Source: Scenedesmus sp. ARA3 (lineage: Eukaryota; Chlorophyta; Chlorophyceae; Sphaeropleales; Scenedesmaceae). From it: DNA of 64,000 bases. Positions 13,690 through 59,653 of the stretch are shown piece after piece (position 1 is the first letter of the stretch; each line of letters starts with the position of its first letter). The stretch is taken from positions 111,555 through 175,554 of the forward strand of contig RWJK01001577.1 in assembly GCA_004335835.1 (NCBI GenBank), written 5' to 3'. Under the pieces are notes generated by a model that saw only the letters and a list, made by a program, of their open reading frames with translations, was not told the origin of the DNA and did not search any database. Position numbers and translations under genes: made by a program.

Positions 13690-15457
13690 CATCCAACAGG
13701 TGACGGCTGCGATACTGAGCGTCATCAACTTGCTATGTTACCCTCATCGCCTTGTGTTATGTGCTGCAGGCTGAGCGAGGTGGAGCTGTGCGACAACCTG
13801 ATGCTGCTGATACTGGCAGGGCATGATACAAGCAGGTGCGATGTGTGTATTGTGCTGCACAGGGCACAACCTGGGACAGACATATGCTGGTGTATGTTGT
13901 CCATGTGGTGCTGCTTGTTTTAGGCAGGAGTCTCGAAAACGTGCACTCGCCGGCTTTTGTTGTAGGCTACAGCTGTTGTCTTGAAGCGTGCTAGTTGCAG
14001 CCTTGTCATATGCATGCACTTGGCAGCAGCACGGCTCATCAGAGCCGGAGGCAGAAGGCTGTTGGTGCTGTGTGTCCCGGCTAATGCTGTACCACCTTGC
14101 GGCACTGCGCCGCTACTGCATGCAGCGTGACGCTCACCAACATCCTTGCCAACCTGCACAACCACCCGGCAGCAATGCAGCAGCTGCGGCAGGAGCAGCA
14201 GGCGCTGCTGGCTCGGCACGGCAGCCAGCTGAGCACTGGCGTGTTGCGGGAGATGCCGTATGCGGAGGCAGTCATACGGGAAACGCTGCGGCTGCGCAAG
14301 TGAGCTGTTTGAAATGCTACAGTTCGCTGCCATGCAATGGCTTGGCTCAAATTGTTGAATCAAGTGGACTTGGCACTATGCAGGTCGGCTGCATGCTGCA
14401 ATGCAAGCCTGGCACCTCGGTCTGTCAGCCAGTGAGTGAGCGTGCGTGTGTCCTGCGTGCTGCTGCAGCGTCATCCCTGGGCTGCACCGCGTGGCAGCAC
14501 GGGACATTGAGCTGGGCGGCTACGCAGTGCCAGCTGGCACGATGCTGTACTCGCCGCTGCACCTGCTGAACAAGTCAGACCCGCGCTGGGCGGGTGACGA
14601 TGTAGAGGCCTTCAGGTGGGGCTGTCGCTGTGGTAAAATCAGCAGTGGAGTGCTGTGCTGCAGTGTGCAGCAGTGTGCGCCAGTAGCATCTATGCCAGCG
14701 CAGGGTTGATGATTGATATTTGTCTCGATATCGGTGCAAGCGGCTGCTTCTACGCACTGTGTCCTGGGATCGCTCTGTCACTCGGAAACGCTCGAGGTGG
14801 CTGCACTGCCTGCCTGCTCTGCTGCCAGGCCTGAGCGCATGATGACAGCTGAGGGCCAGAAGGGGGGCTGGCAGCTGTCGTTTGGGCATGGACCAAGGTG
14901 AGCAGACCGTGATAGGCAGGTGAAGGGCAGCTTTGTTTGTCTTGCTGCTTGATCTGTGCCTGTGGCCTCTAGAGGGAGCAGCAGCGATCATGGCAGCTGT
15001 GTGCTGGTGCAGCTGCACAGCCTGTGTCGATCTGGGATCCACCAGTTTCACGGCGGTGGCTTGCTAGCAGCATGCAGCATGCAGCCACCTTGCTGTGTAT
15101 GAGCTTTGCTGAATGCCTGCTGCCGCACTGCTGGCGCAGTTGTTCAGACTAGCCGCAAGTATTGTGCTGGGTACCTGATGGCCATAGCAGAGATGCATCC
15201 CAGCTTTGTGCGGAGTGTGCTGTTCAGCCGACATGAGGCACCCTTCTGCCCCTTGCACTGCACAACGCAGGTTTTGTGCGGGCTACCTGGTGGCAATGGC
15301 TGAGATGAAGGTGCTGCTGGCGCTGCTGGCACGGGGGTACGACTTTGAGTGCGACACAGACACGCAGTGGGTGCAGCAGGTGGGGCAGGTGCCTGCCAAC
15401 CACCTGCCGATGACAGTCACACGCAGGAGAGATGCAGCGGCAGCTACGTGCGTGTGA
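11286..15457 (+). CDS. cytochrome P450, predicted plastid-targeted
   Basis: Exons: 11286-11421, 11768-11913, 12378-12608, 12873-13040, 13301-13560, 13770-13835, 14126-14299, 14469-14615, 14829-14897, 15271-15457; phases close throughout, giving about 527 aa. The N-terminus (MSTCRPQQSILRSSG, many Ser/Arg, no hydrophobic anchor) looks like a transit peptide, unlike ER P450s. Landmarks: Pro-rich region leading to GSPW, FSPEAIERLTPRM (helix C region), I-helix AGHDTSR, K-helix ETLRLRK (ExxR), FRPERM, and the heme loop SFGHGPR|FCAG split by the last intron, with the axial Cys in FCAG. The order and spacing resemble CYP85-clan or CYP120-like enzymes; the substrate cannot be told. The intron after exon 2 begins with GC (CAG|GCAAGT). 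A dead copy of the heme-Cys exon lies in the last intron. Confidence 0.88.
15159..15200 (+). pseudogene. decayed copy of the P450 heme-cysteine exon start
   Basis: Encodes YCAGYLMAIAEM, matching FCAGYLVAMAEM of the true last exon 112 bases downstream. The acceptor equivalent to CGCAG|G now reads CGCAA|G, so the AG is lost; use of the neighbouring AAG one base on would shift frame and stop after a few codons. It therefore appears non-functional. Confidence 0.8.
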
Positions 15458-15462
15458 CTACC

Positions 15463-15501
15463 CAGTAGGATTTCGTCCCCCCTGGTAACAAAAAAAAATA
15501 C
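15463..15501. repeat. 40-bp dispersed repeat, copy 1
   Basis: Carries CCAGTAGGATTTCGTCCCCC, then CTGGTAACAAAAAAAA. A second copy, same orientation, lies at about 16688-16727 (GATTCCG, CTGATAACAAAAA). The A-run end resembles the tail of a short retroposed element, but no body is shared beyond about 40 bases. Confidence 0.6.
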
Positions 15502-16319
15502 GTGCGTGTCCTTTCCCTGATAGGCGCTGTGTGGCAGGGTTGCTGGCGTAATTTGGGCCAGTGCAGGGGTTCCTGGCACGTTTTGTTCATCTGGCTGGAG
15601 AAGCACAGGGCGTGCCATAATTCGGTTCGCAGCACGTTCATCACATGTGGCCATGTCAATTGTGGGTCCAGCGCACGGCGGTGTATAGCTGGACTGGACA
15701 TGTCACCAGCTGCGGGCTCTCAGCCTGCCAATGCTGGCTGGTGCCCCGCGCCTGACTTGCATTGGTTTGTCCATTGTTCCAAAAAAGAATATAAAATGCA
15801 GTGCCCCACGTGGGTGGATGGTGCAGTGCACATGCGCATATGCACTACAGCTGCATATCATAAGATGATGATGATCGGGCACACTCATGACACGTACCTA
15901 TGAGGTAATTGAGGACTGTGCGTGACGTTTGCTCACAACAGTGCATCGGGTATTCTAGGCGCACCAGCAGGCTTGGACGTATGTCGCCGCGATGTGTGTC
16001 CAACCTTGGATGTGTCCAATGTCAAAACCCACCTACGTTGCACACTCGTGAGAGGACGACATTCCCGCAGTGGTCACCGGCTGTAACTCCAAGAGTTAAT
16101 GCAGAGTTGTTGCCGGTCACGCGGTTGTTGCCCGTGCAACTGTAGCAGCCCGTGCATCAGTTTGGTGCCGCGGCTCGCGAGTCATGCAAGCGTGCACAGG
16201 CCACAAAAGAATGAACGGGACATATCTAAGGTCCAGTTCTCTGCAGCTCAATGTGCATGTACGGCAGTCGAGGAGCGTTTCCTGCCGCAGCACTTCTGCC
16301 TCGTCTTCCTCCTCCTCCT

Positions 16320-16350
<31 letters not shown>

Positions 16351-16542
16351 GAGGCAAAGGCTGCAGCCTGCGGCAACACCAGGATGGTTTGGATTTCACA
16401 CAGAAAACTGCGGCGAAAATGTGTTCAAGCATGAGGTGTTAGCACTTGCAGCGTATGATCTTGACTCTGGTTGTAACAGGCCTAGTGACCTGCTACTGGA
16501 TAATGGGATTGGGGAACGATGTGCATTATATATATATATATA

Positions 16543-17700: not shown

Positions 17701-18186
17701 TCAAGCAGATGCCTGCAGCACTGCCCGGCTGCCGACCGCTGCAGCCGCCCGCTGCCCTTCCTGCTCTCGCAGCATTGCCTCAGCGGCACGCCTGCCTGGC
17801 CTCAGCCATAGCCAACCAAGCAATGTCTTGCTGGTGACCTGCAGCAGCTGCTTGCTGTCAGCAACCAGAACACACTCGCCAAAATGGTGCCGCATGCATG
17901 TTTGCATGCTGTAACAAAGTCTTGCTGTTGCGCACAAGCGCACTGGCACACTCAGAGTGTCTCAAGCATTCGCCTGCACCACTGCCCGGCTGCCGCCTGC
18001 AGCAGCAGCCCCCGCCCCTCCCTGCTCCTGCAACAGTGCCTCGGCTGCCCTCCTGCCTGACCTCAGCGCAGCATCGAATGTGGCACTGTCCCTGTGGTCC
18101 CCTGCTACGTACAGCCCAGCACCCACCCAACCCTCATCTACTACCGCACTGCTGCCATCGCCTGGGACACTCTCGCCATGCGACAA
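17701..18186 (-). pseudogene. two decayed copies of the terminal exon of the FAD oxidoreductase gene
   Basis: Copy one (stop at 17962-17964) still reads GLYVAGDHRDSATFDAALRS and then RRAAEALLQEQ, ending VVQANA; copy two (stop at 17701) keeps only RRAAEAMLREQ to VLQASA. Both lie downstream of the real stop at 18240 with offsets of about 278 and 261 bp. They have no acceptor-linked upstream part, so they are untranslated remnants, possibly inside the 3' UTR. Confidence 0.85.
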
Positions 18187-18239
18187 ACCTCACCCTCACA
18201 CAATACACCACTAGTCGGGTACTGCCTCTCACACGAGCC

Positions 18240-19882
18240 TCACGCGGATGCCTGTACCACTGCCCGGCTGCCACCAGCAGCAGCCCCCGCCCCTCCCTGC
18301 TCCTGCAGTAGAGCCTCAGCAGCCCTCCTGCCTGACCTCAGCGCAGCATCAAATGTGGCACTGTCCCTATGGTCACCAGCCACATACAGCCCAGCCCCTA
18401 GTGCCACTGGCCTGCTGAAGTTAGTGGGAGGATTTTGGTTGGGCTGTGCAAAGGGGATGCGGTAGGTGCGCAGGTGGCTCCAGGTAGAGACCTGCTGCTG
18501 GCCAAACCATGCTGACAGCTCCTGCTTGACTGCATCGATCAGCTGCTGCTCGGAGAGGTCTGGCTGCGTGCCGATGGTGGAGACTGACACCAGTGCCTGC
18601 AGGAGATGCAGCCCAGGGTGCAGGTCAGGGCAAGGTTTGCGCGTCAATGTCAGCAGCGTGTTGCCAGTCAAGCGACGCTGATACTACAGAAGGTGGCAAG
18701 CGCGTGAGCACAAGCAGCACATGCAAAGTCCGATGTATGATCTACAAATCACTGCTTTTTTCTGAGAAGCAGCAGTGGTCCACAAGGCTGCTGCCGTAGT
18801 GTTGCAAAATTCATCGAAGGACAATGCCACAAAATAAAAAGTTCCATTGGCACTCAATCCCCGCACCTGGCCCGGTGGCGTTTACCTTTGCGCCATGGAT
18901 GGTAAGTAGCAGTTGTCAGCCAGGCTGCTGACACAGCATGCCACAAAATGAAACAAGTGACAAACCACGTGACACGGCACTCCAATCCCGCACCTACAGA
19001 CCTCTCTCACCTGCCCTGCTGGCGCGTAGCTCGGAGCCACAGTGGATGGGAAGCAGCAGTTGTTGACCAGGCCGCTGACACAGCATGCCACATAACAATA
19101 GAAGTGACAAAATAACACGTTAAAAACGACAGCAGCAGGCCTCACCTGCCCTGCTGGCGCGTAGCTTGGTGCCACCGTGGATGGGAAGCAGCAGTTGTTG
19201 ACCAGGCCGCTGCCGGTACCATTGAGGTACAGAACGTTGTCTGGTGACGGCGGCTGGGGTGCCTTGAAGTACAGGTTGCATGTGCCCACGCCAGCCTCCG
19301 TCTTGGAGGGAGCAGCCTGTTTGTTTGCATAAGATACGTAGCAGCAGAGCAGCGGGAACGGATTAATGCCAGATGCAGGGAACAAGCACAAGCTGCTTGC
19401 AGCTGTAGATGCCTGGAAGCGACGGATGGAATGAATGATTTAATGAATGAGCTACGCGTCGTGTAGCGACGGGTTGTGTCTAGTGCCTACGATCCTGGAG
19501 CTTGTGTATGCAAGCTGCAAGTCGTTGGACCGGATACACACAGAACAGAGAGGAACAGGCAGCTATGCACGACATCTCCAGCCAGCTGCCTCCCATGCTT
19601 AGGCTCGTAGCCAGATGTACTACAAGCACTCAACACAGCCGACAGCAGCACTGCAATGCACCCCACTCACATCGAGTGCCCCTCCCAGCAGCCGTGCTGC
19701 TTCAGGCCCTTCAACCGCCACCACCACGCCCTTGGAGGCTGTGATGCTGCTGCCATCAGCCAGCTGCACGCGCGCAGGGCTGCCGCCAGCTGCACCAAAC
19801 ACCTGCTGCACGCGCACATCTGCGCAGAGGTAGTGGGCAGGCAGGGCGGCCAGCGGGCAGGCAGGCAGGCAAGCAAGGAATA

Positions 19883-19914: not shown

Positions 19915-22324
19915 AGGCAGGCAGGAAGGCATGCAGGCGGGCGGGCATGCAGGCAGGCGGGCAGGCAGGCAGGTAATGAGCAACGCATAAGCACAGGCAG
20001 AGGACCAGCAAGAGACGAGAGCATTATGCATGCTTGCGCGTTGTGTGGATAGGCATGATTGCAGTGGGCAAGCGCGCTGCCGTGGCGCACCTGTGTAGAT
20101 GCTGTCGGCAGGCAGCCGTGCCTCCAGCTGCTGCGCCATGGCGCCTATGCCAGCAGCAGGCAGGCAGTTCTGCCCTGTTGCCAGCATGCGCATCACAAAC
20201 TCAAACAGCCTGCGAAGCATCAACATTAGAAGCGGCAGAACAGGTTTGCAGGATTGCTGCAACATTGCGTGAGGTGGCTCAGCCTGCACTTGTCAGGACT
20301 CTGCTACGCCAGCAGTTGATGGACGCTGGCATGAAGTGCAGAAGCGCACTCATGAGTGACGCAGATGCGCGACTGTTTCGGAGGGTGCTACCTGCCGCAA
20401 GTGTTGCCGAAGATGAGCTGGTTGCAATCCGACATGCAGGCTTTTCAACATCTCTGCTTCTTTATCGAGCTGGCTGAGGTGGTTCACTATCATCTGCCAC
20501 ATGTGCCCACATGTGCCATTCATATCGGTGCTGTGTCCTTGCTGTGCCACTGCTGCTTGCTGACTGGTCTACTATGCTCACAACGCATCGCTTGCTTACC
20601 TGCTGCTGGTGGTCAGCTGCGTGTTGAAGAAAATGCCGCCCAGGAAAGGCCTGAAGAAGCGGTCAATGATGGCCTCTGAAAAGCCCTCGGCCTGCACGCG
20701 TTTCAAAAGTGCCGTAACAGTCTAATTCTGCAGCCTGCTGGCATCTAAACACACCGTGTGAATGCGAGGCAGAAGGCATGGGCAAGGGGCCACAACTGGC
20801 AGCAAAAGCACACAACATGGCATACTAGCTGACAACACAAGCACTGCTGCTGCTGCTGCTGCTGACTCAAGGGCATACAGTCTCCAACAAAGCTGTCTGG
20901 CACTGCTCCAGGCTGCCTATCACACCCTATCCCTTACAGCCTTACAGCCTCACCCTGAGCCGTTCCAGGATCGTAGTCTCTGGCTTTTCAAAGATGGCAT
21001 CCAGCGGGCCTATCAGTGTCTTGAGCCTGAACAGGCCCACATTGACTTTGTCAACCACGCTGCCGACGGGGTTGGTCAGTGACAGCAGCCCATCCGCAAA
21101 GTGACGCAGCGGGTCTGCAACGGTGTGGAACTGGCCGTTGTACCACACGCGGGCACCTGCAAGGCGCAGCAGCACAGCGTCAACGTAACATCATGACAAC
21201 TGACACCTGATGTTACAAGCAGTCGTATGCGTACACCCTTGACAACTGCGCGGCGATGCGGGTTGGGCACAAATGCACAGTACACTTTGAAGCCGGTTGC
21301 ACCAGACATGCAGTGCCTGCTTGTAGCAGCAGTCCACACCACGCCAGGCTCAGGCCGAAAAGTTATGACGAGGCAGTACAGAGTAGTTCAAATCTGTCTT
21401 GCTACATTGCAAGTGCAACCCTGTCTGCACTTCAGTGTCACACTGGCTGACACCCCACCTCATGCCATGCAGCAAACCCTGGTACTTGCAGTGCTGTTGC
21501 CATACACTGCTGTTGGCAAGGCAGCTGACATGCAGTTTTACACTACTAGCCTGTCGTGTCAACACAACATGCGCAGTGCTGCCAGCTGGCTGCCAGTTAC
21601 GAGCCATTGGCACCTGTGCAGCATGCTGCTGCTTTATAAAGAACCATCTGCACCATTCACATCACCCACTACAGCATCCCATACTCCCTGCTGTAACAAC
21701 ATGGCACATTTTGTGCCTGGCTGCGCAAGCAAACTATCAGGCCCGCCCACCTGCGTAGAAGGGCTGCAGCTGCAGCGCTTCAAACTTCGCTGCCTGCTGC
21801 TGCTGCTGCAGATTGCTAAGCACTACCCGGTACCGAATGCATCCCCCAGAGGCGCACTCCCATGTGCAGAGCAGCTGCTGTCAAATGTTGAGCAACTCAG
21901 CCAGTTGAACTGCCAGGCACCACCCACCTGCATAGAAGGGCTGCAGCTGCAGTGCCTCAAAGTCCAGGGTTTCCCGCGCCTCTGGGTAGCCAGTCAGAAA
22001 GATCTGAAAGCCCCGATCCAGCAAAAACCCGTCCACTACATCTGTGCGGGTACGCCCACCAACACCATCGCCTGCCTCCAGGATAACTGGTGCTAGCCCT
22101 CGCTTGCGCAGCACTGCTGCTGCGTTCAGCCCTGCCAAGCCAGCACCAACCACCACTACGTCTGCCTCTGATGGCAGCTGCTTGCTAGATGCTGCAGCAG
22201 CACATGGGGTGAGGCGCACCCTGCGTGTGGTGAAGGCCCTGCTGCAGCAGCGCTGGGTACTGCTGGATGCTAGGCCGGCCCTGCTGGCACGTGAATGCCC
22301 AGCTACGCTCGTGCTAGACAACAT
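18240..22324 (-). CDS. plastid FAD-dependent amine-oxidase/phytoene-desaturase-like oxidoreductase
   Basis: Exons: 22324-21928, 21156-20954, 20691-20600, 20209-20091, 19819-19671, 19316-19146, 18596-18240; phases 1,0,2,1,0,0 close to about 495 aa. An N-terminal Ser/Arg-rich stretch ending near TPCAAAA resembles a chloroplast transit peptide. The Rossmann FAD motif VVVVGAGLAGLNAA is followed by a Glu-ended strand (ILEAGDGVGGRTRT, the GGR motif) and LLDRGFQIFL. Later: FFRPFLGGIFFN, LPAAGIGAMAQQL, and the C-terminal FAD site GLYVAGDHRDSATFDAALRSGR. This order marks the plant/cyanobacterial branch of flavin amine oxidase/desaturase-like proteins whose substrate is often unknown. Two junctions carry truncated repeat copies (donor copies at 18880-19075, terminal-exon copies at 17701-18186). 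It shares a 350-bp divergent promoter region with the gene at 22673. Confidence 0.88.
18880..19075 (-). repeat. two extra copies of the exon-6 donor end of the FAD gene
   Basis: The real exon ends at 19146 with VNNCCFPSTVAPSYAPAGQ and GTGAGG. A near-identical copy (about 19075-19010) encodes the same peptide and keeps a GTGAGA donor-like site; a second, decayed copy (about 18930-18860) reads LADNCYLPS and has a stop. Both lie in the following intron. Confidence 0.85.
19855..19978. repeat. GGCA/CAGG tetranucleotide microsatellite in an intron
   Basis: Imperfect (GGCA)n run with interruptions, in the intron between FAD-gene exons ending 20091 and starting 19819. Confidence 0.9.
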
Positions 22325-25752: not shown

Positions 25753-28700
25753 TCACTCCTCCTTGGTGCCGACTGCTGCTGCTTTGAGCCCTGGCGGCAG
25801 CCGCCGCACCGGCTTCGCTGCTGCTGCCTCTGCCGGTTTGAGCAGCAGCCTGTACAGCAGCCCTCCAAGCATCGCCCCAGCAAAGGGTGCCAGCCAGTAC
25901 ACTGCAATCTGCTCCAACCAGCTGTGGCCCTGGTAGTGGTGGTACCAGCTGAAAGCCTGCGGCAGCAGCAGCAGCAGCATCAGCAGCAGCAGAGGGGCAG
26001 CATGACGTGTGCAGCATCGCAAGCTTGATGGTGCTTTGACGTCACCGCAAGTTGGGTTGCTGACGGCATCCAGATGTTGGGCACGGCTGCACAGGCAACT
26101 GACAACACAGCGCGATGCACGCAAGGCAACAAGCGATGGGATGAACGACACACGCATGCTCATTGCATGCAAGCTGGGATGGGAGGCATGCATCCATGAG
26201 GGTCGTATGACTCACCACTGCGGGGTTCATGCTGGGACCTGTGAAGTAGGATCCAGTTACGATCTGCACAGCACAGCAGTGAACAGCACACACAAACTAG
26301 GCCAGTGACGCTACAGTATCGCAGCCGGCAAAAGACATGGTTGTGCATTCACCATGCCTAAAGACTGTCATTTTACATGGCATGCGAGGGGCTACACAAG
26401 CAGGTGGCGTACTGGAATCAGAATGCTTCAAAGCAGACACTGGCACCTGCAGCTTGGTGCACGCTAGTAGCATGGAGAACAGCCAGCCTCCTTACAGCTA
26501 AAAGGAACGTGCTGACCGCTGACACAACATGTGCTTCCATTGCTGCTTGACGGTTGCTGCTGGTTGCTCTGATACTGGCACAGTGCTTGGAGTTGACAAG
26601 CACACATGCTCAGGGCTATCACAAATCAATTGCCTGCTGCATCACCCACCAGCAGCACTGTTGCAAACACCGGCGACCAGTACGCCACAAACTTGCTGCG
26701 CTGCGCATCTGCGGCACAAACCACAGCAGCAGACCAAATGTCAGAATGCGGTCGGTGTATCGACACAAAACAGATAGTGACGCGTGACAGAACATGTGTG
26801 GAATGAGCTCCAAGCGCATGAGTCATGCGTGCATGAACCCTGAGCTAGCAGCTGCCAAAATCTTTGAGGTTTGGTGGACAACTGTGGCGCGGGTGCCACA
26901 TCTCCATCGTTGCATCAAGTGCAATCTGGGAGCGCTTCCAAACAGCGCTTGCCTACAATGTACAGCCTGGTGCTGATTGACGCACACCCCACCACAACTG
27001 TCGGTGTCTAGCGTGCGCCAACACATGAGCTCTACTCGCCCTGTTCATGCTGACAGCGACCCCAGCAATGCGCAGTGGCTTACCAGACGCGTACAGCATC
27101 ACCCGGATGAGCACAACCGAGTACATATCCAGCGCATGGAACCGCGCACGTCAGCTGCAGCTGGTTATGTCCCCTCTCGCCCTCACCTGACGCGTACAGC
27201 ACCACCATGTTGATCAGCAAAGGTCACTGTGTGAGCAGTTGCTGTGTGAGAAGTAGGAATTTTAAACCTGGCCCTCACCTGATGCGTACAGCACCACCAT
27301 GTTGAGCACCATCCCCAGCAGCATCTCCACGCCCACGCCCACACCCAGCTGCACACCAGGCTTCAGCCCGCCAGGCAGCGTGTGGAAGCGACTGGCAGCA
27401 GCAGCAGCAGGACAGGCAAGAGGTCAGCGCAAGCAGAGAAGCTTGTCAGTGCTGGGGTAGAGGCGCCCGAGCCTGCCAGGCAGTGTAGGGAGGCGGCTAG
27501 CGGCGGTAGCAGCAGCAGCAGGCAAGCCAAAGGCAGCAGGTCAGCGCAAGCAGAACTCAGCATAAGTGCTGGCGTCATGCAATGGTAGAGGTGCAAGGGC
27601 TGCATGCGGGCCGGTGGTGAGGTTAGCGAATGACGCATGTTGTCTGATGACAAAGATGCAAGGCTGCGGTTGTTGTCAGCTTATCATTGAAGCGCATGGT
27701 TGTTGGGGCCAGCGGTGCAGGACAGCCAGCTGCTGCAGCATACGCAAGTGCGATGTGTTTCAGCCGCTGCTGGGGCTGCAGCTGCTGCTGGCGTAGGCTG
27801 CATGCTGCTGCTGCACCTGCCACTCACTCTTTGAGCCAATCTGGGGTGATGGTGACTGCCAGGTAGCTGCCTCCCAGGGCGCCTCCAATTTGTGCCACCT
27901 GTTGGTTGTGGTTGTTAATGACAGATGAAACGCATGGGCAGGCGGTGCCGGTGTTGCACACAGCATACAGCAACACATCACACGCATGACTGTGAGCATG
28001 AGGCAGCAGGTGGTGAGACAAGAAATTTGTCCGATACAGAGATTAGCTATTTATGGGACCAGCGCAAACATGGTGGCCCCTGGTGGCCCTCTGGACTGCC
28101 AGATGCAAACCCTAGTCTGGCTTTGAGTGCAGGTGTTGCTGACCACTCTTGGCTGCACCTGCTGCTTCCCCCAAAGACCACACCACAAGCAGCCACTATC
28201 CAACATCGACATCTCAGGTAAGCCAGTACTGCAGCACCCCAGCAACAGCCCTGGCTGTTTTGCTTTCTCATCTGTTGCTGGTGCTGCTCACCATGCGAAC
28301 CAGGTTGAGCGTCAGCGTGCCCCTGCCGGCGCACACGAATGCTGCATTGTGGATGGGGTTGAACATGGCGCCGCCAAACATGTCACACATGGGCCCCATC
28401 ATCATGATAGCTGACACGATGACTGTCACAGTCAGCGCAAACTCCCCAAGGCCGCTGATGGATGCTAGGGCTTCAGCTGCCTGCAGCAGCAGCAGTAGCA
28501 GCAGCCAGGTTTGCAGGATGCACCACAGACGTATGCATACTGACAAGCTTGATATGGCATAAGCGTGCGCTGTGCTGCAGCTTCAGATGGAGCCAGGCAG
28601 GCGTGCTGATCTGGCCATTAACGGGCTGTCCTGCTGTTGTTACTGCAGCGCGTGGTGTCTGGCAATGAACTTTATTGATGGTGGAATAGCAGCTGTAAGC

Positions 28701-29295: not shown

Positions 29296-31135
29296 ATGCA
29301 GGCATTAAGACATCAGCAGCTACGAAGTCGCTGCCAGCATGCAGTGCACAGCCGCAGGCGCATGCAGCTGGCTAGGGTACCAGCAGCAGCACCAGGCAGC
29401 ACCAGCGCACTCACAGCAGAGCAAGCCACTGGACTGCCAAAGCAGCGGCTGCTGTATGATGGGGTGAGAAGCATAACCATCTTCCTTGCAGCTGCAGCCA
29501 ATGTGCCTGCTGTGCTTGCTGCTCTCTGCGGCCATCACTCTAGCCAGCATCTGCAGGCCAGCCTGGCAAGTGTTAGACAGCTATGCCCAAGTGTGCATCA
29601 TACCTGCAAGCATGAGACTGTTTCGCTGATGTAGGCGTCTTTCCTGCAAGTTCAAGACTGGTATCTTGAAATATACATCTCACCTGCAGCTGCACCGCAG
29701 CCCCTGAGCTCAGTACTTGCATGCGTCACTTGGCTGTCCACAGGTGGTGTTTGACATGGATGGGACCCTCACGCAAGCACACATCGACTTCGCCGACATG
29801 CGCGCAAGAACAGGTGCGTCACAGCCGCAACACTTGCTGCCTCAAATGCAGCGCAGCACTTGCCAAGTAACGAGCACTGCTGGTAGCACTGCTGGTGATG
29901 GTGCAGCACTGCTGAAGGCACCAGCTCAAGCTAGCACTAGCACACATGCCGCAGCAGCCGAACACCAGCAGCTGCTTCTGTGCAACACAGATGGACTGGA
30001 AGCCCACCAGGCGCTGGCTGCTTGATGACTCCTGCATTCCGTCCAAAAATTACATGTCTCTGCCTATTGAACCTGGCATGGGGAACTCAAGTGCTTCATG
30101 CTGCAACAGCACAGCACTGCTAGCACATCAACTGACCTCGCCAGCAGTGCGCATGTGACAGCTGATCACGGCCTTCTTCCTATTGCCCCTGCTGCATCCA
30201 ATATATGCAGGCATTCCTGTTGGTGACCTGTTTGTGGCTATGGAGTCCTGGGAGGAGCCGCATCACGTCAACTGACCGCAACTGCACTGCTGTTCTTGCA
30301 ACTTTCCTGTGTCTGCAGGCATCCCAGTTGGTGACCTGTTTGTGGCCATGGAGTCATGGGAGGAGCCGGAGCGCATCAAGCAGTCCATGGATGTGATCCT
30401 GGAGATAGAGGCAGAGGCAGCCAAGAGCGTGCAGGTGCGCGATGACAGCAGCAGCGGCGGCGGCAGCAGCAGCAGGAGCAGCAGCAGCGTCGATGGCGGG
30501 CTGGAGTGGCAGGAGGGCGTGCAGGCTGTAGTAGACAACAGCAGCGGTAGCAGCAGCTGCAGCCAGCTGTGGCAGCAGCAAGTGTTCTATGTATGGGGTA
30601 CCAGCTCTGCGTGCCTGCAAGCAGTGAATGCGGCTGCAGCAGGGTTGCCATACTGCAGCGAGGCTGCCAGCAACGCTGTTGGCTGCCACAGCTGTGCTAT
30701 GGTGAAACCTGACAGCAAGCAGCAGCACTGACAGCAGCAGCGGATGCTAATGTCGCAAATGTTATTGCTGTTATTTGTGCAGGGCAAGGAGGGCTTGATG
30801 GAGCTTCTGCAGATGCTGAAGCAAAGTGATGTCAAAGTGGCACTTGTCACGCGCAACACTACCAGCAGGTGTGCTGCTTGGCGGGCAGCAGTGCCAGCTG
30901 ACAGTAGCAGCCTTACAGCATGCGCATGGCACGCCACCACAGAGTCAGCTGCAGCAGCAGATCGTGGACACAGATACAGCAGGATGCTGTCAGTACGCTT
31001 GCCACCATATGCATGCCACACACAACTGGGCCCGGTGCCACTGTCGTAGTTGACGCGTAGCAGCGCTCTTGCATATCACAGCAGCGTGCAGCCCTGGCAG
31101 CATGACAGCCTACCGGCCTGCTGTACTGGCTGAAT

Positions 31136-31168: not shown

Positions 31169-31617
31169 TGCTGCTGTGTTGGACACGTGCTGCAGCGTTG
31201 CGGCCTTCTTCCAGCTGATTGGCGAGGAGTGGCGGGGCCTGTTCAGCGAGATCCGCACGCGCAAGTTCAAATATGTGAAGCCAGACAAGCGGCTGCTGCT
31301 GGATGTGGCAGAGGTAGGTGGCCAGCTTGTGGGGACGCTCTTCTACTGTAGCAGGAGCGTGACGATGTAATTGTTGATAAGCCACATGCCTATGGCATGC
31401 TGATGTGTGTACGCAGGCAGGTGCTGTGTTGTTTAGCTTTGGATGAGTGTGGTGTGGCCGCTCATGCTTGCTTGTTCACGTGGTTCATACCACAGCGCTG
31501 CACAAGAACCCAACCCGCTGCTACTGCTGCTGCTGCTGTGCAGGCGTGGCAGCTGCACCCTGGCCGCCTGCTGATGGTGGGCGACTCCTTTGAGGACCAA
31601 CTGTGGCCGCAACTCAC

Positions 31618-31659
<42 letters not shown>

Positions 31660-36800: not shown

Positions 36801-37606
36801 GCAGCCACTTGCAGCAGCAGCAGCAGCAGTACAGCAGCGGCGGCAAGTGGGGCAGCGGCGGCGGCTATAAGCAGGAGCGGTGCGGCGCTGGCAGCAGCAG
36901 CAGCAGCAGCGGCGGGGGCATGGCGCCGCAGTCGCTGCCTGGCAGCCTTGGGCTGGTGCAGCAGCAGCTGGCTGACGTGCTGCAGCCACAGGTGGGCCGG
37001 GAGGCAGGCATGTCTTATTGATGCAATGCTGGGGTTGCATCAGCCTGCAGGGGTTGCATCACATCCTCAACTTGCGGCCCAGTCGAGTGCAGCAAGGGAG
37101 GTGGTAGTGCACAGTACGTTGTTGATGCTGTCGGTGATGTTTCAAGCACTGGCTGACGATATGCTACTACAATCGCTGACTTGACGGTATGTGTGCCTGC
37201 AGGACTGCGTGAGGGACAGCGGCGGCTCACTGAAGCTGAGCCTGGAGGGCTGGATGCCACCCGGTGTCGCTGGCGCAGGCAAGGACAAGCCCAGGCAGCG
37301 CAGCAGCGCTGCTGCAGCGGCAACGGTGAGTGGTGCCGCATGAGGCTGGGATGGAATTTTGCTCAGGGAACAGATGTGAGGGCAGCTGTTGGGTGGGGCG
37401 GGCTATGGGTTTGGCGGGTGCGCAGGCAGGAGGGTCCTGATACAGTGATGTCGGGACAGGTGCATATTGTGTTAGTGAATGCGTAGGTTTGATAGTGCCA
37501 GAACAACTCAAACTTGCTGCTGCTGCTGCTGCTGCAGGTGGCAGAGGCGGCCAAGCAGCGCGCGGACGCAGCCTTTGAGCGCTTTGCAGGCGGTCTGGCG
37601 CGCTGA
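33900..37606 (+). CDS. conserved protein with zinc/HNH-like DHMPPNK domain
   Basis: Exons: 33900-33952, 34147-34279, 34525-34746, 35033-35201, 35499-35617, 35916-36081, 36474-36991, 37203-37325, 37538-37606; all phases close to about 523 aa. The N-terminus has a Lys-rich start and two moderately hydrophobic Gly/Ala segments (LLPFGAQVVASAAAYTVGV; CMGIVGVGFASALAG), possibly membrane-associated. The central part carries CHHCG, then VIGDHMPPNK, then RFYPQCQRCSIKQ: two C-x2-C pairs flanking Asp-His and a conserved-looking Asn, the layout of treble-clef HNH nucleases (my inference). The C-terminal third is Ala/Ser/Gln/Gly-rich low complexity, ending in a short helical segment. I do not know a name for the family. 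No exon-edge repeats are seen here. Confidence 0.8.
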
Positions 37607-42744: not shown

Positions 42745-45700
42745 TCAACCGTTGAAATGGAAGGTGTACTGGAAGCCGCCTTGCTGGTACCCCTGCTGGA
42801 ACCCTGGGTGCCCCCAGCCACCACCGCCACCCTGCTGCTGCTCCAGATCTTCGCCCCTGTCATACGCGCCGCGCTTCTCCTCGTCATTTAACACTTCATA
42901 CGCCTCCGCGATCTCCTTGAACTTCTCCTCTGCAGAAAGCAGCAGACACCAGCATGAATACAATAAAACTGTCATATTACAATACATTTTTGCCAGGCGG
43001 AGGTTTGGTGGCATTTGCATTTGCACTGCCTGCTGCATCTCCTTGCTCACAGCATTGGGCGCTGCAACTGCTGGAGCAGAGCACAAAGCTACACTGCGCT
43101 GCATGTGCTCCTCACCATTCTCGGCCTTCTCCTTTGAGTAGTGCAGAGGAACCTGGCTTGAAATACTGACTTCAAATACTAGATAACAACTGTCCGCCCA
43201 CTTATGTCAGCTAATTTCCACAGCTGGTCGCAGTGGTAGGCAGTTCTCAGCGCCGCATGCTTCTCACCGTTTTCCGCCTTCTCTTTGGATGAGTGCACCT
43301 TATCCGGGTGGTACTGCCGAGCCAGTGCCTTGTATGCCTTTTTGATGTCCCGTGGTGAGGCCTGCTTGTCGACATTTAGGATCTTGTAGTAATCCTTGCG
43401 CTTGCTGATCTTCAGCTGCTTCTCAGCCTCACGGTACAACTGCGGTGGAGGAAAAAGGAGGGCGGGGCGCCAAACAGAGTGAATGTCTCAGTGGAAATAT
43501 GTGCACGGAAAGGATTGCGCAGTGGGCCTTGCAGTGGGCCTTGCGCTATGAAGTGCGCCTTGTATGTGTTCTTGATGTCGCATGGTGAAGCCTGCTTGTC
43601 AATGCCGAGGATCTTGTAGTAATCCTTGCGCTTGCTGATCTTCAGCTGCTTCTCAGCTTCTCGGTACAACTATAATGACAAGGAAAAGCAAGGCAGGGGC
43701 CGGGATGGTTAGTGTCAATGTAAGTGCTTGTCAATGCCGAGGATCTTGTAGTAATCCTTGCGCTTGCTGATCTTCAGCTGCTTCTCAGCTTCCCGATACA
43801 ACTGTAATGACAAGGAAAAGCAGGGCAGGGCGCCGCGTAGTGAGTGTCAATGTATTTGCTTTTCAATGCCGAGGATCTTGTAATCCTTGCGCTTGTTGAT
43901 CTTCAGCTGCTTCTCAGCTTCACGGTACAACTGCGGTGGTTGTAAAAGCAGGGCAACAAACAGTGAATGTCTCAGAGAAAGTTTGTGCACGGTGATCGTG
44001 TATTAGTCAGTCAGTGATTGCCCTTGCTCAATTGGACTGCACTGCGCTGCCCCCTGCAGCCCCAACACCCAACGCACCTGATGCATCTCGCCGTCCTGCT
44101 GGTGCTGCTGCAGCGTGTTGCGGGCCAGGTTGACTGCCTCTTCAAACCGCTCTGCTGCTAGCAGCGCCCGGATGAGCTCCTTTGTAGCATCATAATAATC
44201 CGGCTGGATGGCAAGCGCTGCTTGGCAGGCCTGCGGCAAATTGGCACACAACAAGCAAGCCCAGATGGTGAGCAGGCACACAACAACTCAATTAGGTGTG
44301 CACTGTGAGGCTGTACTGCTGCGCTCAAGCACCACCGCTGCACATACACGCTGCAAACAGCTCAGCTCGGACTGTCACGCAAGCACAGCCGCGAGCAGCA
44401 GCTGTGATGAGACTAACAGCCCATCACCACAGCCTGGCTGCGCAGCAAGCAGGCATGGCTGCACTGCAGGGTCAATGCTTCTGGCGGTTACGGGGTGGCG
44501 AGGCAAAGGAGCGCCAATCAGGGTAGCGTAGGTGACACCTGTGACTGCCGCTGGCGCAGCAGCCAGTGTGATGATCTATAACATACAGTTAGTGCTCACC
44601 TGGACTGCCTCCTGCGGCTTGTTCAGCATCTGCTGCACCCTGCACAGCTGCAGCTGCAGCTCCTTGTTCACCGCCTGGTGCTGCGGGTCCACCGCCAGTG
44701 CTGCCTGGCACTGCTGCTCAGCCTCAGGGTAGTCCTGCGCCTCAAACGCCCTGCATAGGCAGACACAGCAGCCAGGTAAGTTGCATTGACAGTGGAATGT
44801 TTGTAGACATGCTAGACAAGGCGCCTGGCACTGCTGCTCAGCCTCTGGGTAGCCCTGCGCCTCAGAAGCCCTGCCTGGACAGGGGGAAACAGCACAGAGT
44901 TACACAAAGCATACATGTCCCTTGTTACATGTCACCCCGTCACATGTCACGTGTCACTTGTTACATTTTCAAACCCACCTGTTGGCGCGCTGCCGCTTCC
45001 TATCTAAGTCCTTCAGCTTGTTGAAAGCCTTGCGGCTGTCTTTGTGGTCCGGATCAAACTTCAGTGCCTCCCCAAAATGACGCTTTGCCATGTCATGGTC
45101 TGCCAGGTACATGTAGGCAGTGCCTCGGAGAGTGAGTGCTTCCAGGTGACCCGGGATAGACTTTACGATGCGGCCAGTGACGCCAATCGCCTGCAGATAC
45201 AGCGCATGACGATGAATTGCGCAGTGCCGCGCAGCATCAACATATACGCATGGCGGCACAGTGTAAATGCAGCAAAGTGACCTGGGATGGACTTTACAAT
45301 GCGACCGGTGACGCCAATCGCCTGCAGATGCATGGCATGACAATGTTGTAAGAAGTGCCTCGAAGAGTGAGAGCTTCCAGGTGACCCGGGATGGACGTGA
45401 CAATGCGGCCGGTGACGCCAATCGCCTGCAGATGCATGGCATAACAATGCAATGAGCAGTACTGCGCAGCATGAGTGCCTCCAGATGACCCGGGATGGAC
45501 TTAACAATGCGGCCTGTGACGCCAATTGCCTACAGGAGTTTGAATGGCAAGTAGCCGCAAGCAGCAGGTGAATCCAGATGTAAGTGCAAAAGCTGGGAGC
45601 AAGGCCGCACTAAGGCACTGAGCTGTACATGGAGCCTGCTGCTGCTGCTGCTCAGTGCTGCTATGCTTGCTGTCGCTCCCTACTCTGCTGCTGCGGTGTG

Positions 45701-48216: not shown

Positions 48217-54059
<5,843 letters not shown>

Positions 54060-54214: not shown

Positions 54215-54308
54215 GGTGCTGCTGGAGGACATGCGGCGGCTGGTGGCCAAGGGGGGCAGCGAGGAGCGCAGCTTCGCATCAGCCGGCACGGAGGGTGGTG
54301 GCCGCTAG
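54215..54308 (+). pseudogene. decayed copy of the NKAP terminal exon end
   Basis: Repeats codons for [10 protein letters not shown] and [17 protein letters not shown] plus the TAG stop, about 250 bp past the true stop, matching the pattern of terminal-exon copies in other genes here. Confidence 0.9.
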
Positions 54309-54309
54309 G

Positions 54310-55190
54310 TTGTGTTCATTGCTGGGGCTTATCAAAGCACGTGAGGGTGGATAACACCTGCTGGTGGTGTGGTTGCCGCGAGTTGGCAGCTGCTGTGGGG
54401 TCTGTACAGCAGGGTTTGTTCCAGGGGAGCGGCGCTGCTGGCTGGCGCAATTGGTTGGCGATGTGCTGTGCAGTGAGCAAATTTGTTTGCACCACGCGGC
54501 TCCTAAGGCGCTGCTCTGGCTCCCTTCTCAGGCTGCTTTGTGCGGCTTTACTTCAATTGCTTTTGTCCTGCTCAAGCCCTTTGCACAAAGGGTTTGGCAT
54601 TGGAAATGAATTCAACCGGCGACTTTCTTGGATGCCGCGCTGGCAGCACCAGCAATTGACTTGGCATGTGGTGGAAGCGTACTGTTGCAGTACACCGGTC
54701 TGCATGCCTCAGATTGGCTCCGTATTTGCATAAAATGTGATTTGTCTGTTGCTTTTCAGGTAATGTCGTCTTTCTTTTGTTCATACGCTTTTCGAGCCTG
54801 GAACTGTCCAAGGTGGTGTCGCAATCGGCAATCAGCAGACAACACGCTTGTGTCTTCTATTCTCTGGACAGTCTCAATCATCGAGTTTTGCTTGAATTTT
54901 CGTGCGTTTTGTACAGTCGAACAAAAACACTGGACCCGCTGCAGTCGCGATACAAGACGTCTTGCAAGGACGTGTATGCCGCTCGCTGAGGTCCTGCTAT
55001 AGTTCAAAACTTGCACCTGGTGGAGATCGTGGTACTATAAAGGATCTTGGCCGCTGCTGTCAGCGCAGAGGCTGCTTTCTGCTTTGCCTGTCCAGATGCA
55101 GCAGTGCACTCGTGACGCGGGCCAGCAAAGCTGCATCTAGCCAACGGTCTCTTTTCAACTAAACCTAGTGGCTCCGGCGAGTCAGCATCC
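54310..55190. other. intergenic stretch, no gene seen
   Basis: Between the NKAP 3' copy and the start of the next gene; open frames lack motifs. Must contain the promoter of the gene starting at 55191. Confidence 0.5.
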
Positions 55191-56898
55191 ATGGCGAAGT
55201 GAGTGCGGCGTGAGACGCAAGAGCACAGCACTTACAGCAGCAAGTGAAAAATGGGCACAGAGCAGCGCACCCCAGGGCTGCATACTGCAGGAATCGCTGC
55301 ACTGTACATCTCTGCTCGCGTTGCCTGAGCATTCTCAACTTCCAGCACTACCAGCTGCAGCAGCACAGCTTTAAGCAACCTAATTGTTGACTTGCATGGC
55401 ACTTGCAGGACGCACCATCAGACGCAGCACTACACAGATGGTGCCAGCACACCTAAAAAGGTGTCTCCTGCAACCTTCCAGTCACCAGCCCCTACAGTTC
55501 AGCTGCCCAACAGCAGCGCAGATGAGCCAGCCACCCCCCAAGCAGCAGCAGCGCAGCAGCACGCTGGCCTGCATGCCACCCCTGGCACCCACATGGTGTC
55601 CCCTGCAGCAGTAGCTCACGCAGAAGCCACAGCTACAGCCATCGCCCGTGCCCGCCTGCGCGCTGGGGCATCCCCTAGAGCCGCACTCGCAGACGCTGCT
55701 GCTGCCAGCACAATGCCAGTCTTTGACCAGCACTTTGCAGCAGGTACAGGTGCAGCTGCACATGCTGCACATATTACACACGCACCATTTCCAGCTGCAG
55801 CAAGGTTCGTGGAGCGTGGAGCAGCAGCAGCAGGCAGGGCAGCAGGGAGGCTCAGCAAGTATGCGAGCACCACAGGGCTTGAAGGAGTGGCCGAGGCAGC
55901 AGGGCATGTGGTGGGTGAGCTGGCGCCTGCTACTAAATGGAGGCAGGAGGTGCTGCTCACGCGGCTTGCGGCCGGCGCAACACTAGCGATCACACTCGGT
56001 GAGAAATGGTTTGGCAGTGGGTGTGCTGTTTGGGCGTCCTGAGGTTGCTTTTGCTTTGGGTCGAGTGCATTGTGAAAAAGTGCTGCTGATCAGTGGGGCA
56101 GGCGTTGCGGCTCTTGACAATCTTGCCCGGCTCTTGAAATCTTTACCTGCTCCCTTTGAGCGCCATCAATGTTGCGTGCACGCACCACACCCAGCCATGT
56201 GCTTGCTAGCTCTGCATCATCAGCTGCTGACATGTTTTTGCGTGTTGTGCATTCGACTGTCTGCCGCAGGCTGCGTTCTGCTGGGTACGTCCAACCAAAT
56301 GTGTGCCTGGCTTCTAATTTTCCCATGACCAGCTGTTGACATTCGTTGCGTGTTCTATATTCTGTGCCGCAGGCTACGTGCTGTTGTTTGCGCCGAGCAG
56401 CCTGGGCTGGCGCGCAGAGATGCGCCTGGTGCGCAGCTTCGGCTACGACAACGCCGTGGCCTTTGCGCTGATCAACCTGCTGGGATTTTTCCCCGCCATC
56501 CTGGGCTGCGTGGCGTGGCCACTGCTGCGCGGGGCGCGGCACCAGGTGCGGCAGTGTGGCTGCAAGCTGCCTGCTTCGTCGCAGATACGGTTGATTGGTT
56601 GCAAGGGGTGGTCATAATGTGTGTCTCGCGGGCGTCATATTAAGACAGTGTAGTCGTACATCATGTGGCTGCGGCTTCTATCAGCCTGCTGCAGATGCCA
56701 CAAGTGAATGCTGTGCTGATCAACCTGCTGGGCTTCTGCCCGGCAATCCTGGGCTGCGTGGCATGGCCGCTGCTGCGCGGCGCCAGGCACCAGGTGCGGC
56801 AGCTGGCAAGTTTGCAACGCATGTGTGCTCATGTACTGTTCACTTTTGGAGCCCTGTGCCTGATGCCTCATGCTCACAACAGACTGACTGAACCAGTG

Positions 56899-56945
<47 letters not shown>

Positions 56946-59653
56946 CTGCTGCTGCTGCTGTGCTGCTGCTGCTGCTGCTGCTGCTGCTGCAGCCGCCGCT
57001 GTGGCGCTACATCCTGGCGTCAACCATGACTGGTGCGTTTGCGCTGCTGTCATACTTGGCTGCCTGGGATCCCCCTAAGCCTGGCAGGGCGCCCCGCATG
57101 CCCCCGCAGCACCTGGTAAGCAGCAGCCCTAGGCCTGGTAACGCACCTGTGTTGGGCGTTACAATTTATTTTAAAAACAAAATTGGAACATTGCTCACAC
57201 ATTGGTGTCAACCTTCGCTGTTTGCCTGCCAGCGGGCTGCCCACACCATGTCAGCCTGCTGCTGCTGTTGCGACAACTACTACAATATCAAACATGCAAG
57301 TAAAACTATGCGCCTTGCTGTGTGTCTTGCTGCAGGCCTGCCGCACCGCGGCCTGCAGCGAGCCTGCAGCTGTATCAGTATCAAATAACCATGCAAGTAA
57401 CATGCTGTGTTCTGCTGTATCTTGCTATGTCCGGTTGTGTTGCCGCAGGCTGGTCGCACCCGCAGCCTGCAGCGCGCCTACGAGTCGCGCCTCTTCCCTG
57501 CCACCCTGCTGGCTTCTTCCCTCGCCATGATCGCCCTCGCCTTTGAACTTCACACCTGCCGCTCTGTTGCGCCTTGCTGTGTGTCTTGCTGCAGGCTGGC
57601 CGCACACGCGGCCTTCAACGTGCCTACGAGTCCCGCCTCTTCCCTGCCACCCTGCTTGCATCATCCTGCGCCATGATCGCCCTCGCTTTCAACAGCAGCG
57701 CAGCAACCTGGGCACAGTTTGGCTACCTTGCTTCCCACAGCTTCACATTCCATGTCATGCTGCTGGACTTCTCTTTGCTCACAATCCTGAGCACCTGGCT
57801 CGTCAGCAAAGATGCGGCAGCGCGCGGCTGGCCGATCGCATCCACAGCCGCCGGGCGGCGTTTCCTGCAAGCTGCGATGCTAGTGACACCAGTGGTGGGC
57901 CCTGGTGTGTATCTGATGATCAGGCCGGTGTCGAGGGAGGGTGGCGTGCTACGTAGGGGCTGGCTGCGGCGGGGCGCAGCAGCAGCATGGGCGGCTGTGA
58001 AGTATCCTTTCCACTTGCCTTCTGGAGGAATCAGCGGCAGATCTGGTGCAGGGAGGTTTGCAGGAGCAGCAAAAAGAGCAGGAGGGGTGGGAACCAGTGC
58101 TGCTGCTGCTGCTGGCAGGCCAGCGCACAGCACCAACACGCGGCGGCAGTACGCAGCCAGGGTTGCAAACGGGGGTGCAGCAGCACACCGCAGCGACATT
58201 GCAGCGGCTGTGGCACATGCTGCTGAGGTGCCGCTGCCAGCAGCGGGGGCTGCAGGCGCGGCGGTTGGCGCTGTGCAGGGGCTGGTGCAGTTGGCGTGGT
58301 CTGGCGGCTGGTCGTGGCTGGGGCAGAGGGTGGCGCGGCTGAGGGGCGGCGGCGCACCAGTGGGCTCTGGGGATGAAGGTGAGGCGCTGTGGTGTTGTTA
58401 CATTGTTACATATATGCAGGGTGCGGCGTGTGTATCGGTGCTGGTGTGTTGGGGACAGCGGGTAGCAAGGATGAGGGGAGGGGGCGCGCCAGTGGACTCT
58501 GAGGATGAAGGTGAGGCGCTGTGGTGTTGTTACATCGTTACACATACATGAGGGGGCGTATGTATCGGTGTTGGTGTGGCTGGGGCAGCAGGTGACGCGG
58601 CTGAGGGGCGGCGGCGCACCTGTGGACTCAGATGATGAAGGTGAGGCGCTGAGATGTATTCCCATGCTGTTGCGCATGAGGGTGCGGCGTACGTGCCCGT
58701 GTGTTGGTGTGGCTGGGGCAGAGGGTGGTGTGGCTAAGGGGAGTCGGTGCACCAGTGGGCTCTGAGGATGAAGGTGGTTTGGCGAGGGTGTGATGGTCTC
58801 TGGAGGCAGAATTGTCCATGGCTCATCACCTGCGGCTGTTGGTGATGTGCCACATCCGGGGTGGTGGCAGCAGCAGCACCAGGTAATGAGCTAGATGTCA
58901 TGGACTTTTCTGCCCCCGGGGACCATCATACCCTCATGTGCAGGTGTACCACACCTTCGACGGCATTGACAACATCTGCTGCTGCTACTGCTGCTGCTGC
59001 TGCTGCTGGTGCTGCTGCTGCTGCTGCTGCCAACACCTACAACAACAGCCGCAGGCGTTGAGCTGGACGCCATGGATGACACTGCTCCCAGGGGCCATCA
59101 TGATGAGCCTCACAACCCCCAGGTACAGGTGTACCGCACATTTGAAGGCACTGACACCACACCCGGCGACGCCACAGACCTGGCTGCTGCTGCAGCCCCC
59201 GCCACACCAAACAATGCATACGTTGGTGGCGTCTCACACCGCCTGGCAAAGCTAGGAGGTCTGCTGCTGCCTCATGTGCAGCAGCAGGGTGGCCGGCGCT
59301 GGCTGCCTGGCTGGGAGCTAGGGCCTAGTGCTGCTCCTGCAAAGGGCAAGGATGATGAGGCTGGCACAGATATGCTGCTGTTCAGTGATGAGTATGATGA
59401 GTATGAGTACGATTTTGAGGCCAGCAGCAGTGATGAGGGAGATGAGGAGGAGGAAGGATTTGAGCTGGATGAGTCAGCTGGCTGGCTAGGTGGAGAGGAG
59501 GAAGAGGAAGAAGAGGAGGCAGGGTTCAAGGAGGGAGGGTTTGGGGGTGCAGAGGAGGGCGGCGACTTGGTTGCTGCGCTCTGGCGGCAGCAGCAGGAGA
59601 GGCTGCATGACGGGGATGATGATGAAGCTGATGACATGGATATTGATGAGTAG
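55191..59653 (+). CDS. multi-pass membrane protein with acidic C-terminus, unrecognised
   Basis: Exons: 55191-55198 (8 nt), 55409-55998, 56373-56545, 56993-57115, 57595-58378, 59055-59653; phases 2,1,0,0,1 close to about 758 aa. The first 200 residues are Ala/Pro/Gln-rich. Hydrophobic segments follow: ITLGYVLLFA; AVAFALINLLGFFPAILGCVAWPLL; YILASTMTGAFALLSYLAAW; LFPATLLASSCAMIALAF; FGYLASHSFTFHVMLLDFSLLTILSTWL; AAMLVTPVVGPGVYLMIR. Similar VGP-YL-RP endings occur in small plastid/cyanobacterial membrane proteins, so plastid membrane is a guess. The C-terminal 200 residues are strongly acidic (EEEEEEEE, DEYDEYEYDFE, DDDEADDMDIDE). Function unknown. Exons 3, 5 and 6 have upstream start copies and exons 3 and 5 have downstream donor copies. 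Confidence 0.82.
56225..56295 (+). repeat. truncated upstream copy of membrane-protein exon 3
   Basis: CTGCCGCAG|GCTGCGTTCTGCTGG at 56270 mirrors GTGCCGCAG|GCTACGTGCTGTTG at the true start 56373 (offset 103); the upstream intron text GCTGACATG-TTGCGTGTT is repeated too. Confidence 0.8.
56695..56805 (+). repeat. copy of the membrane-protein exon-3 donor end
   Basis: Repeats codons for NAVLINLLGFCPAILGCVAW and LLRGARHQ with a GTGCGG donor, about 250 bp after the true donor at 56545. Confidence 0.92.
57325..57594 (+). repeat. two upstream copies of membrane-protein exon 5
   Basis: Copies start at 57335 and 57449 before the true exon at 57595 (offsets 114 and 146). The second is nearly intact for 98 bases (AGRTRSLQRAYESRLF, LASSLAMIALAFE) without stops; the first keeps only about 30 bases. 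Confidence 0.92.
58379..58775 (+). repeat. three copies of the membrane-protein exon-5 donor end
   Basis: WLGQRV-RLRGGGAPV-S-DEG ends recur with donors after 58510, 58640 and 58773; the true donor is after 58378. Spacings 132, 130 and 133 bp. The first two extra copies keep GTGAGGCGCTG; the last has GTGGTT. Confidence 0.92.
58870..58980 (+). repeat. truncated upstream copy of membrane-protein exon 6
   Basis: Matches the start of exon 6 (true start 59055): ELDVMDFSAPGDHH versus ELDAMDDTAPRGHH, then CAGGTGTACC-ACACCTT text in the same order. Confidence 0.8.

Follow-up and report, generated by a model that had tools for sequence, protein, structure and literature searches.

Why do the introns of a green alga hold truncated copies of the ends of the exons that they separate, often with the splice site attached? 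The question is raised by a 64,000-nucleotide stretch of the genome of Scenedesmus sp. ARA3 (assembly GCA_004335835.1, contig RWJK01001577.1, positions 111,555 to 175,554, forward strand; 56.6% GC), hereafter the window, in which an initial annotation had reported splice junctions multiplied by local tandem duplication in at least eight unrelated genes. The answer that we favor, on balance and with modest confidence, is that short segments spanning exon junctions have been duplicated in tandem again and again, and that recombination has afterward kept the exon-edge part of these units alike.

Exon-edge copies are local and recurrent

Each of the eight genes (P450, FAD amine-oxidase, aquaporin-like, HAD, RRM, TPR-DnaJ co-chaperone, NKAP, and membrane-protein) carries truncated exon edges with a splice site in the adjacent intron or past the stop codon (Table 1), the latter in NKAP and the aquaporin-like gene, as had been proposed. 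Self-comparison of the window returned 59 direct pairs at most 1 kb apart and 2 pairs farther apart (E ≤ 1e-4); thus, the copies are local. The reported acceptor-side offsets were recovered, that of the weak P450 copy included: 112 in P450; 108 and 124/105 (Tandem Repeats Finder) or 120/229 (BLAST) in HAD; 103/95 in RRM; 113/146 in the membrane-protein gene; 118–126, 98–135, and 101 in NKAP; and 131/235/339, 120, and 230/362/494 in TPR-DnaJ. For 25 of the 156 exon edges in our hidden Markov model (HMM) gene models of the window, some of whose exons are themselves copies, the best intronic copy scores at least 44 and above all 60 shuffles; the same comparison found none in the HNH-like stretch (34619–37606), a lipase-like gene (6390–8392), or the model at 631–4480. 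The P450 model has a copy at one junction by the shuffle test and at 0 of 10 junctions in the BLAST-based count. The RING and HNH-like genes had been described as free of copies, which holds for the HNH-like stretch; the RING open reading frame near 4587–5063 lies outside the gene models, and no self-match cluster is found there. Visible homology extends over a median of 49.5 nt on the exon side and 7 nt on the intron side (146 pairs), so that many pairs match over far less than their offset, and what is mostly visible is an exon edge with a few intron bases rather than a full tandem unit.

The analysis also covered 252 kb of further loci (designated L) fetched from the same genome (87.3 Mb in 1567 contigs), some 24.5 kb of which are N. 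Genes were modeled with a simple HMM trained on the window and the fetched loci, with seed exons from NKAP and with neither annotation nor RNA as input; this HMM fuses neighboring genes and adopts some copies as exons. The low-complexity proteins L011, L014, and L029 were left out of the pair and cluster counts, L012 (mostly N) and L013 out of the junction-overlap rotation test, and L003 and L013 out of the 32-mer self-match count. Pfam matches were obtained for P450, amine oxidase, TPR-DnaJ, RRM, HAD, and NKAP in the window and for the complex I 49 kDa subunit (L015) and a proteasomal-type AAA ATPase (L004) in the loci; a Pfam search of the “aquaporin” and HNH-like proteins gave no match.

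In the window and loci together, 36 gene models have three or more scored junctions, and 83 of their 386 junctions have a copy, a share that is not an unbiased genome average since loci were selected in part by contig number, in part for lying beside the window, and in part for lying next to copy-rich loci. Copy frequency is patchy among genes (χ² = 119.4, 35 degrees of freedom), and copies are also present in housekeeping genes of the loci, among them those for a proteasome-type ATPase and the complex I 49 kDa subunit and one that, to judge from its sequence, codes for a putative light-harvesting-type protein. Out of 269,744 valid 32-mers, 18,272 have a self-match (at least 26 of 32 positions) at ±40–300 bp versus 147 at ±2000–2260 bp, a 124-fold difference, and matches at 40–300 bp are found for 13.4% of 32-mer windows in exons, 7.7% in introns, and 2.4% in intergenic sequence. 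On the donor side, the match rate is 9–12% in the last 40 exon bases and 1–3% in the first 60 intron bases, recovering to 8–12% (and a single low of 7.5%) at intron positions 80–220. The acceptor side shows a rate of 12% across the first 40 exon bases, as opposed to 3–5% across the last 60 intron bases. The one array that was used as a probe against the genome matched its own locus only.

These data make assembly error unlikely as the source of the copies, to judge from the sequence. That two diverged haplotypes or misjoined repeats were concatenated at exon edges would account for pairs that differ mainly at synonymous sites, and the window does contain 50 N; we nevertheless give this explanation only the slightest probability, since arrays reach six copies with different spacers, copies carry frameshifts, the NKAP end exon occurs once in the genome besides its own terminal copy, and the probed array has no match elsewhere. 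Diverged alleles or a hybrid genome were likewise rejected as the source, as no second NKAP locus was found in the genome.

Period and junction bias

The narrow size range noted initially is borne out by a median period of 128.5 bp (interquartile range 115–146.5) in 78 exon-containing clusters, and the nearest offset falls at 110–140 in 42 of 84 cases and at 220–300 in 18 of 84, i.e., at the period and its double. Among 99 clusters, these 78 contain exon sequence, 10 are intron-only, 10 are intergenic or in untranslated regions, and one is mixed. Under a slightly different exon rule, 79 of the 99 overlap an exon versus 47.5 in random rotations (s.d. 4.9, maximum 59 in 300). The excess is modest for units that are still complete (39/50 versus 28.4, s.d. 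3.4) and large for partial units (40/49 versus 19.0, s.d. 3.2), which suggests that visibility, together with purifying selection presumed to act against exon-internal duplications, explains part of it. It had been pointed out that equally common junction-free duplications would reduce the bias to an artifact of visibility, and this is partly what we find: intron-only and intergenic arrays of similar period occur and stop codons are duplicated too, but junctions are still over-represented. The true junction share may be higher, because at least one “intron-only” cluster (57309–57693) sits on an exon edge unscored as exon and some “intergenic” clusters lie where no gene was predicted.

The idea of a recurrent mechanism is thus upheld as far as the many genes, the multistep growth, the multiplied splice sites, and the longer introns are concerned, but these do not demonstrate that it is directed to splice junctions; a splice-specific mechanism stays a candidate, the junction excess being in part one of visibility. 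Eight pairs with at least 92% identity over at least 0.8 of the period represent young units. Genes with higher codon adaptation have copies at a larger share of their junctions (ρ = 0.52, p = 0.005, 28 gene models, L011 entering with a forced zero as its pairs are excluded), and this may reflect expression or just slower loss of recognizability; the other three of the four rank correlations tried on these models, with intron length, GC at third codon positions, and intron GC, were not significant. An active process that inserts exon edges into introns, through splicing- or transcription-coupled breakage and templated copying, would be in keeping with this trend, with the strong gene-to-gene heterogeneity, with the junction excess, and with homologies that end a median of 7 nt into the intron. 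We consider it quite improbable, given that tandem duplication accommodates both the regular spacing and the residual homology of spacers, that intron-only and intergenic arrays exist, and that codon adaptation may only prolong recognizability.

Copies are noncoding and multiply splice sites

A coding role was suggested by synonymous-only differences in NKAP and FAD, counted by hand and confirmed in single pairs, and is rejected by an indel test and by polarized codon counts. In the exon part of the copies, the frame is broken by 40 of 52 indels, whose lengths three does not divide, which also speaks against mutually exclusive or alternative exons. Copy-specific changes number 52/51/100 at codon positions 1, 2, and 3, consistent with a constrained exon having been copied several times in succession, although the share of position 3 is somewhat high. 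Whole mini-exons or recursive splicing were considered as well, the HMM making some copies into exons of 11–20 amino acids or of zero length, and were rejected on the NKAP comparison. The 274-residue NKAP protein joined from conserved exons aligns with seven algal relatives (two partial), in whose proteins no repeated exon edges appear; the closest NKAP relatives include two eukprot transcript proteins (86% and 74% identity) and Monoraphidium minutum (53%).

Of 81 donor-side copies, 71 retain GT, and of 73 acceptor-side copies, 63 retain AG; terminal exons or misregistered pairs account for some of the losses. As had been claimed, splice sites are multiplied: 59 of the 81 donor and 39 of the 73 acceptor copies score at or above the 25th percentile of working sites, compared with 3.3% of GT dinucleotides and 13.6% of AG dinucleotides taken at random, and many copies would look usable to the spliceosome. 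Identity at the two donor GT positions is 0.94/0.91, and at the last five exon bases it is 0.89–0.96; extra conservation of GT/AG over neighboring edge bases was not detected. Taken with the frame-breaking indels, this gives no sign that the copies are translated or that they are under special selection as splice sites. Copy-bearing introns are longer (median 545 bp, n = 59) than those without (315 bp, n = 117; p = 0.002), which supports the proposed intron lengthening. That selection keeps the copies because they serve as alternative, decoy, or backup splice sites would explain why the conserved tract consists of the edge plus the donor consensus and why so many donor copies (59/81) score like working donors; it is nonetheless improbable, as GT/AG are conserved no more than their neighbors, the frame is not kept, and decayed copies occur.

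Edge and spacer similarity are uncoupled

Between copies, edge identity is 0.89 and spacer identity is 0.545 on the donor side (81 comparisons) and 0.647 on the acceptor side (73), with 0.39 for shuffled sequence. Edge and spacer similarity are uncorrelated (r = 0.08 donor, 0.21 acceptor), and among 30 pairs with an edge identity of 97% or more, 17 have spacers whose similarity is within the range of unrelated spacers, a combination seen at 0.2–3% in a neutral simulation. Some spacer homology persists (donor 0.54 versus 0.34 unrelated; acceptor 0.65 versus 0.43 unrelated), which, with the regular spacing, suggests a probable descent of the spacers from common units. In L015, the complex I array, a spacer is common to copies 1 and 2, and an upstream flank is common to copies 2 and 3, a pattern as after exchange inside the edge. 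From the sequences, we infer that recombination has probably homogenized the edges, among which that of the working exon is the conserved one.

Plain neutral tandem duplication, in which copies decay without recombining and their exon parts look kept simply because the working exon is unchanged, would yield the same duplication topology and the frameshifted and decayed copies; changes specific to the working exon fall mostly at third positions (28/43), and in 50 of the 99 clusters the match covers at least 0.8 of the period, both as it would have it. By our own estimate, however, it predicts a spacer divergence about 1.5 times that of the exon, which is at odds with the identities above, and it leaves the missing edge–spacer correlation and the 17 discordant pairs unexplained. 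We regard it as possible but rather unlikely.

Proposed course of events

In the reading that we prefer, stretches of about 100–150 bp would be duplicated in tandem repeatedly in this genome. Duplications that span an exon border or a stop codon would survive, because the gene remains whole through the copy that is still attached to the exon body, and exon-internal duplications would be lost. Surplus copies would then stay in the intron as nonfunctional exon edges with competent-looking splice sites, and the intron would be longer. The 40- to 60-nt exon-edge part might go on recombining with its neighbors and with the working exon, by unequal exchange or gene conversion, as the intron spacers, having no template, drift apart. 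In a more specific version, each exon edge would seed its own array through splicing- or transcription-linked duplication and outward recombination copying, so that introns grow from their own borders and not by transposons, most of all in strongly expressed genes; this we think distinctly unlikely.

Several points weigh against duplication followed by recombination. The support is the sequence of one genome assembly, and 9 of the 17 discordant pairs come from L015 and are thus not independent (the others are from L020, L023, L026, L028, and the window). The converse pairs, with the same spacer and different edges, are few (3/7), and at least one is distorted by a small gap in the ungapped count. 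Exon interiors 100–300 nt from a junction also self-match, in 7–20% of windows, partly because the HMM modeled copies as exons. Mismatches fall at codon position 3 in 62.5% of cases for the nearest copy (87/84/285; p = 5e-8 versus 50%) and in 56.8% for the farthest (109/111/289; p = 0.001), and for neutral copies of a constrained exon we would expect, by rough judgment rather than calculation, at most about 50%, perhaps 58% with mutation bias. Repeats of 40–60 bp are short for classical gene conversion, and the narrow period is not accounted for by duplication and recombination.

Features of the window

The exon-edge copies and associated gene models are collected in Table 1. Of the two FAD copies of exon end 19146–19316, that at 19005–19077 is intact and that at 18861–18930 is decayed.

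Table 1. Gene models and exon-edge copies, in positions of the window
Gene	Feature	Position	Strand	Details
P450	Gene model	12426..15457	+	HMM; Pfam p450 E 2e-51
P450	Acceptor-side copy of exon 15271-15457	15154..15195	+	Offset 112; 81% over 42 nt; score 44, shuffle maximum 21
FAD amine oxidase	Repeats around small model exon 17962-17996	17701..18398	-	Offsets 261 and 278
FAD amine oxidase	Two copies of exon end 19146-19316 and donor	18861..19077	-	Offsets 135 and about 280
FAD amine oxidase	Copy of exon end 21928-22238 and donor	21732..21784	-	Offset 177
Aquaporin-like	Terminal exon end copied past stop codon	25320..25642	-	Offsets 246-257 and 416
Aquaporin-like	Copy of exon end 27279-27348 and donor	27176..27219	-	Offset 92
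HAD (Pfam HAD_2)	Acceptor-side copy of exon 30319	30206..30271	+	Offset 108
HAD	Acceptor copies, then donor copies	31517..32221	+	Periods 124, 105 (acceptor); period 130, offset 298 (donor)
RRM (Pfam RRM_1)	Two acceptor-side copies	40393..40525	-	Offsets 103, 198; identical over 38 and 30 nt
TPR-DnaJ (Pfam DnaJ, TPR)	Three acceptor-side copies of exon 43268-43439	43557..43992	-	Offsets 230, 362, 494
TPR-DnaJ	Acceptor-side copy of exon 44600-44750	44823..44882	-	Offset 120
TPR-DnaJ	Three acceptor-side copies of exon 44979-45190	45277..45535	-	Offsets 131, 235, 339
NKAP	Gene model	48217..54056	+	HMM; Pfam Nkap_C E 2.8e-43
NKAP	Copy of exon end at 48791 and donor	48882..48912	+	31 nt; offset 110
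NKAP	Four copies of exon end at 49341 and donor	49444..49969	+	
NKAP	Acceptor-side array before exon 51742	50957..51741	+	Period 118-126; six copies by eye
NKAP	Copy of exon end at 51883 and GT	52039..52095	+	Offset 209; four differences, all synonymous
NKAP	Five acceptor-side copies before exon 52940	52302..52939	+	Spacing 98-138; diverged spacer types
NKAP	Two copies of exon end at 53121 and donor	53209..53517	+	First frameshifted
NKAP	Acceptor-side copy of exon 53738	53635..53680	+	Offset 101
NKAP	Copy of terminal exon end, stop codon, and 3' flank	54216..54414	+	Offset 252
Membrane protein	Copy of exon end near 56545	56712..56802	+	Offset 248
Membrane protein	Two acceptor-side copies of exon 57595	57309..57548	+	Offsets 259-260 and 146
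Membrane protein	Three donor-side copies of exon end near 58378	58425..58776	+	Period 132

Repeats of other kinds are present as well. NKAP intron 50314–50468 holds a 16/31-bp minisatellite, different in kind from the exon-edge copies, and CAG/CTG microsatellites are common in the window, some in or beside duplicated units (e.g., 31517–31767). A tandem array with a period of about 141–153 bp and no predicted exon lies at 10250–10967, in intergenic sequence or an unmodeled gene. A 539-codon open frame with repeated GGA-rich segments (61672–63291) presumably resembles an extracellular beta-helix protein. Beyond the window, L014:1662-4342 encodes a Ser-Pro-rich wall-type protein largely composed of in-frame tandem repeats, and one contig (G000:C1476) carries a close group of several light-harvesting-type (PF00504) matches.

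Implications

About a fifth of the exon junctions in this sample, which is not an unbiased one, carry extra and mostly strong-looking splice sites. If this holds genome-wide, it would offer a natural experiment in how decoys are passed over by the spliceosome, as well as a nontransposon route to long introns. In the same family, the part of PMC5966456 drawn on here tabulates a mean intron of 462 bp in Tetradesmus obliquus (Scenedesmaceae) versus 230–302 in four other green algae. Gene predictors can turn edge copies into false exons, as the HMM used here did.

Comparison with known systems

Among the literature matches listed, no title or opening abstract describes such arrays in algae, a weak negative as subscription literature is thinly covered. 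The closest parallel is intron gain by tandem genomic duplication, in which, according to the part of PMC3443670 consulted (citing Gao and Lynch 2009 and Hellsten 2011), an intron is built from a duplicated exonic unit. In both cases, a segment with splice-site sequence is duplicated in tandem inside a gene, but there the intron is made from the duplicate, whereas here existing introns are extended. Among 164 introns, upstream exon tails are found in 31 and downstream exon heads in 30, the edge-type pattern; the arrangement of intron gain, in which the intron start resembles the downstream exon head and the intron end the upstream exon tail, is found in 2 and 1 of the 164 (0 and 0 in the shuffled control). 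The period peak with its double and the median of 128.5 are those of head-to-tail duplicates.

Introners, described in the portion of PMC9860276 used here as dispersed families of introns in a genome, are similar in that one type of event alters many introns of one genome. They differ in being dispersed, whereas the copies tested here match their own locus only (2 far pairs in the window; one array probed genome-wide). A known origin for short head-to-tail duplications is offered by DNA breaks with complementary overhangs, which, in the section of PMC8355091 considered, give small tandem duplications through CST-Pol alpha-primase with test overhangs of 43 and 49 bp. The later homogenization of edges is no part of that system as described there, and our duplications are known from sequence, without break ends. 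In concerted evolution, unequal exchange keeps tandem repeats alike. The arrays described here may be comparable in this respect. Their edge and spacer histories disagree, and they differ in that likeness is confined to the exon-edge half of each unit, for which the working exon is the anchor.

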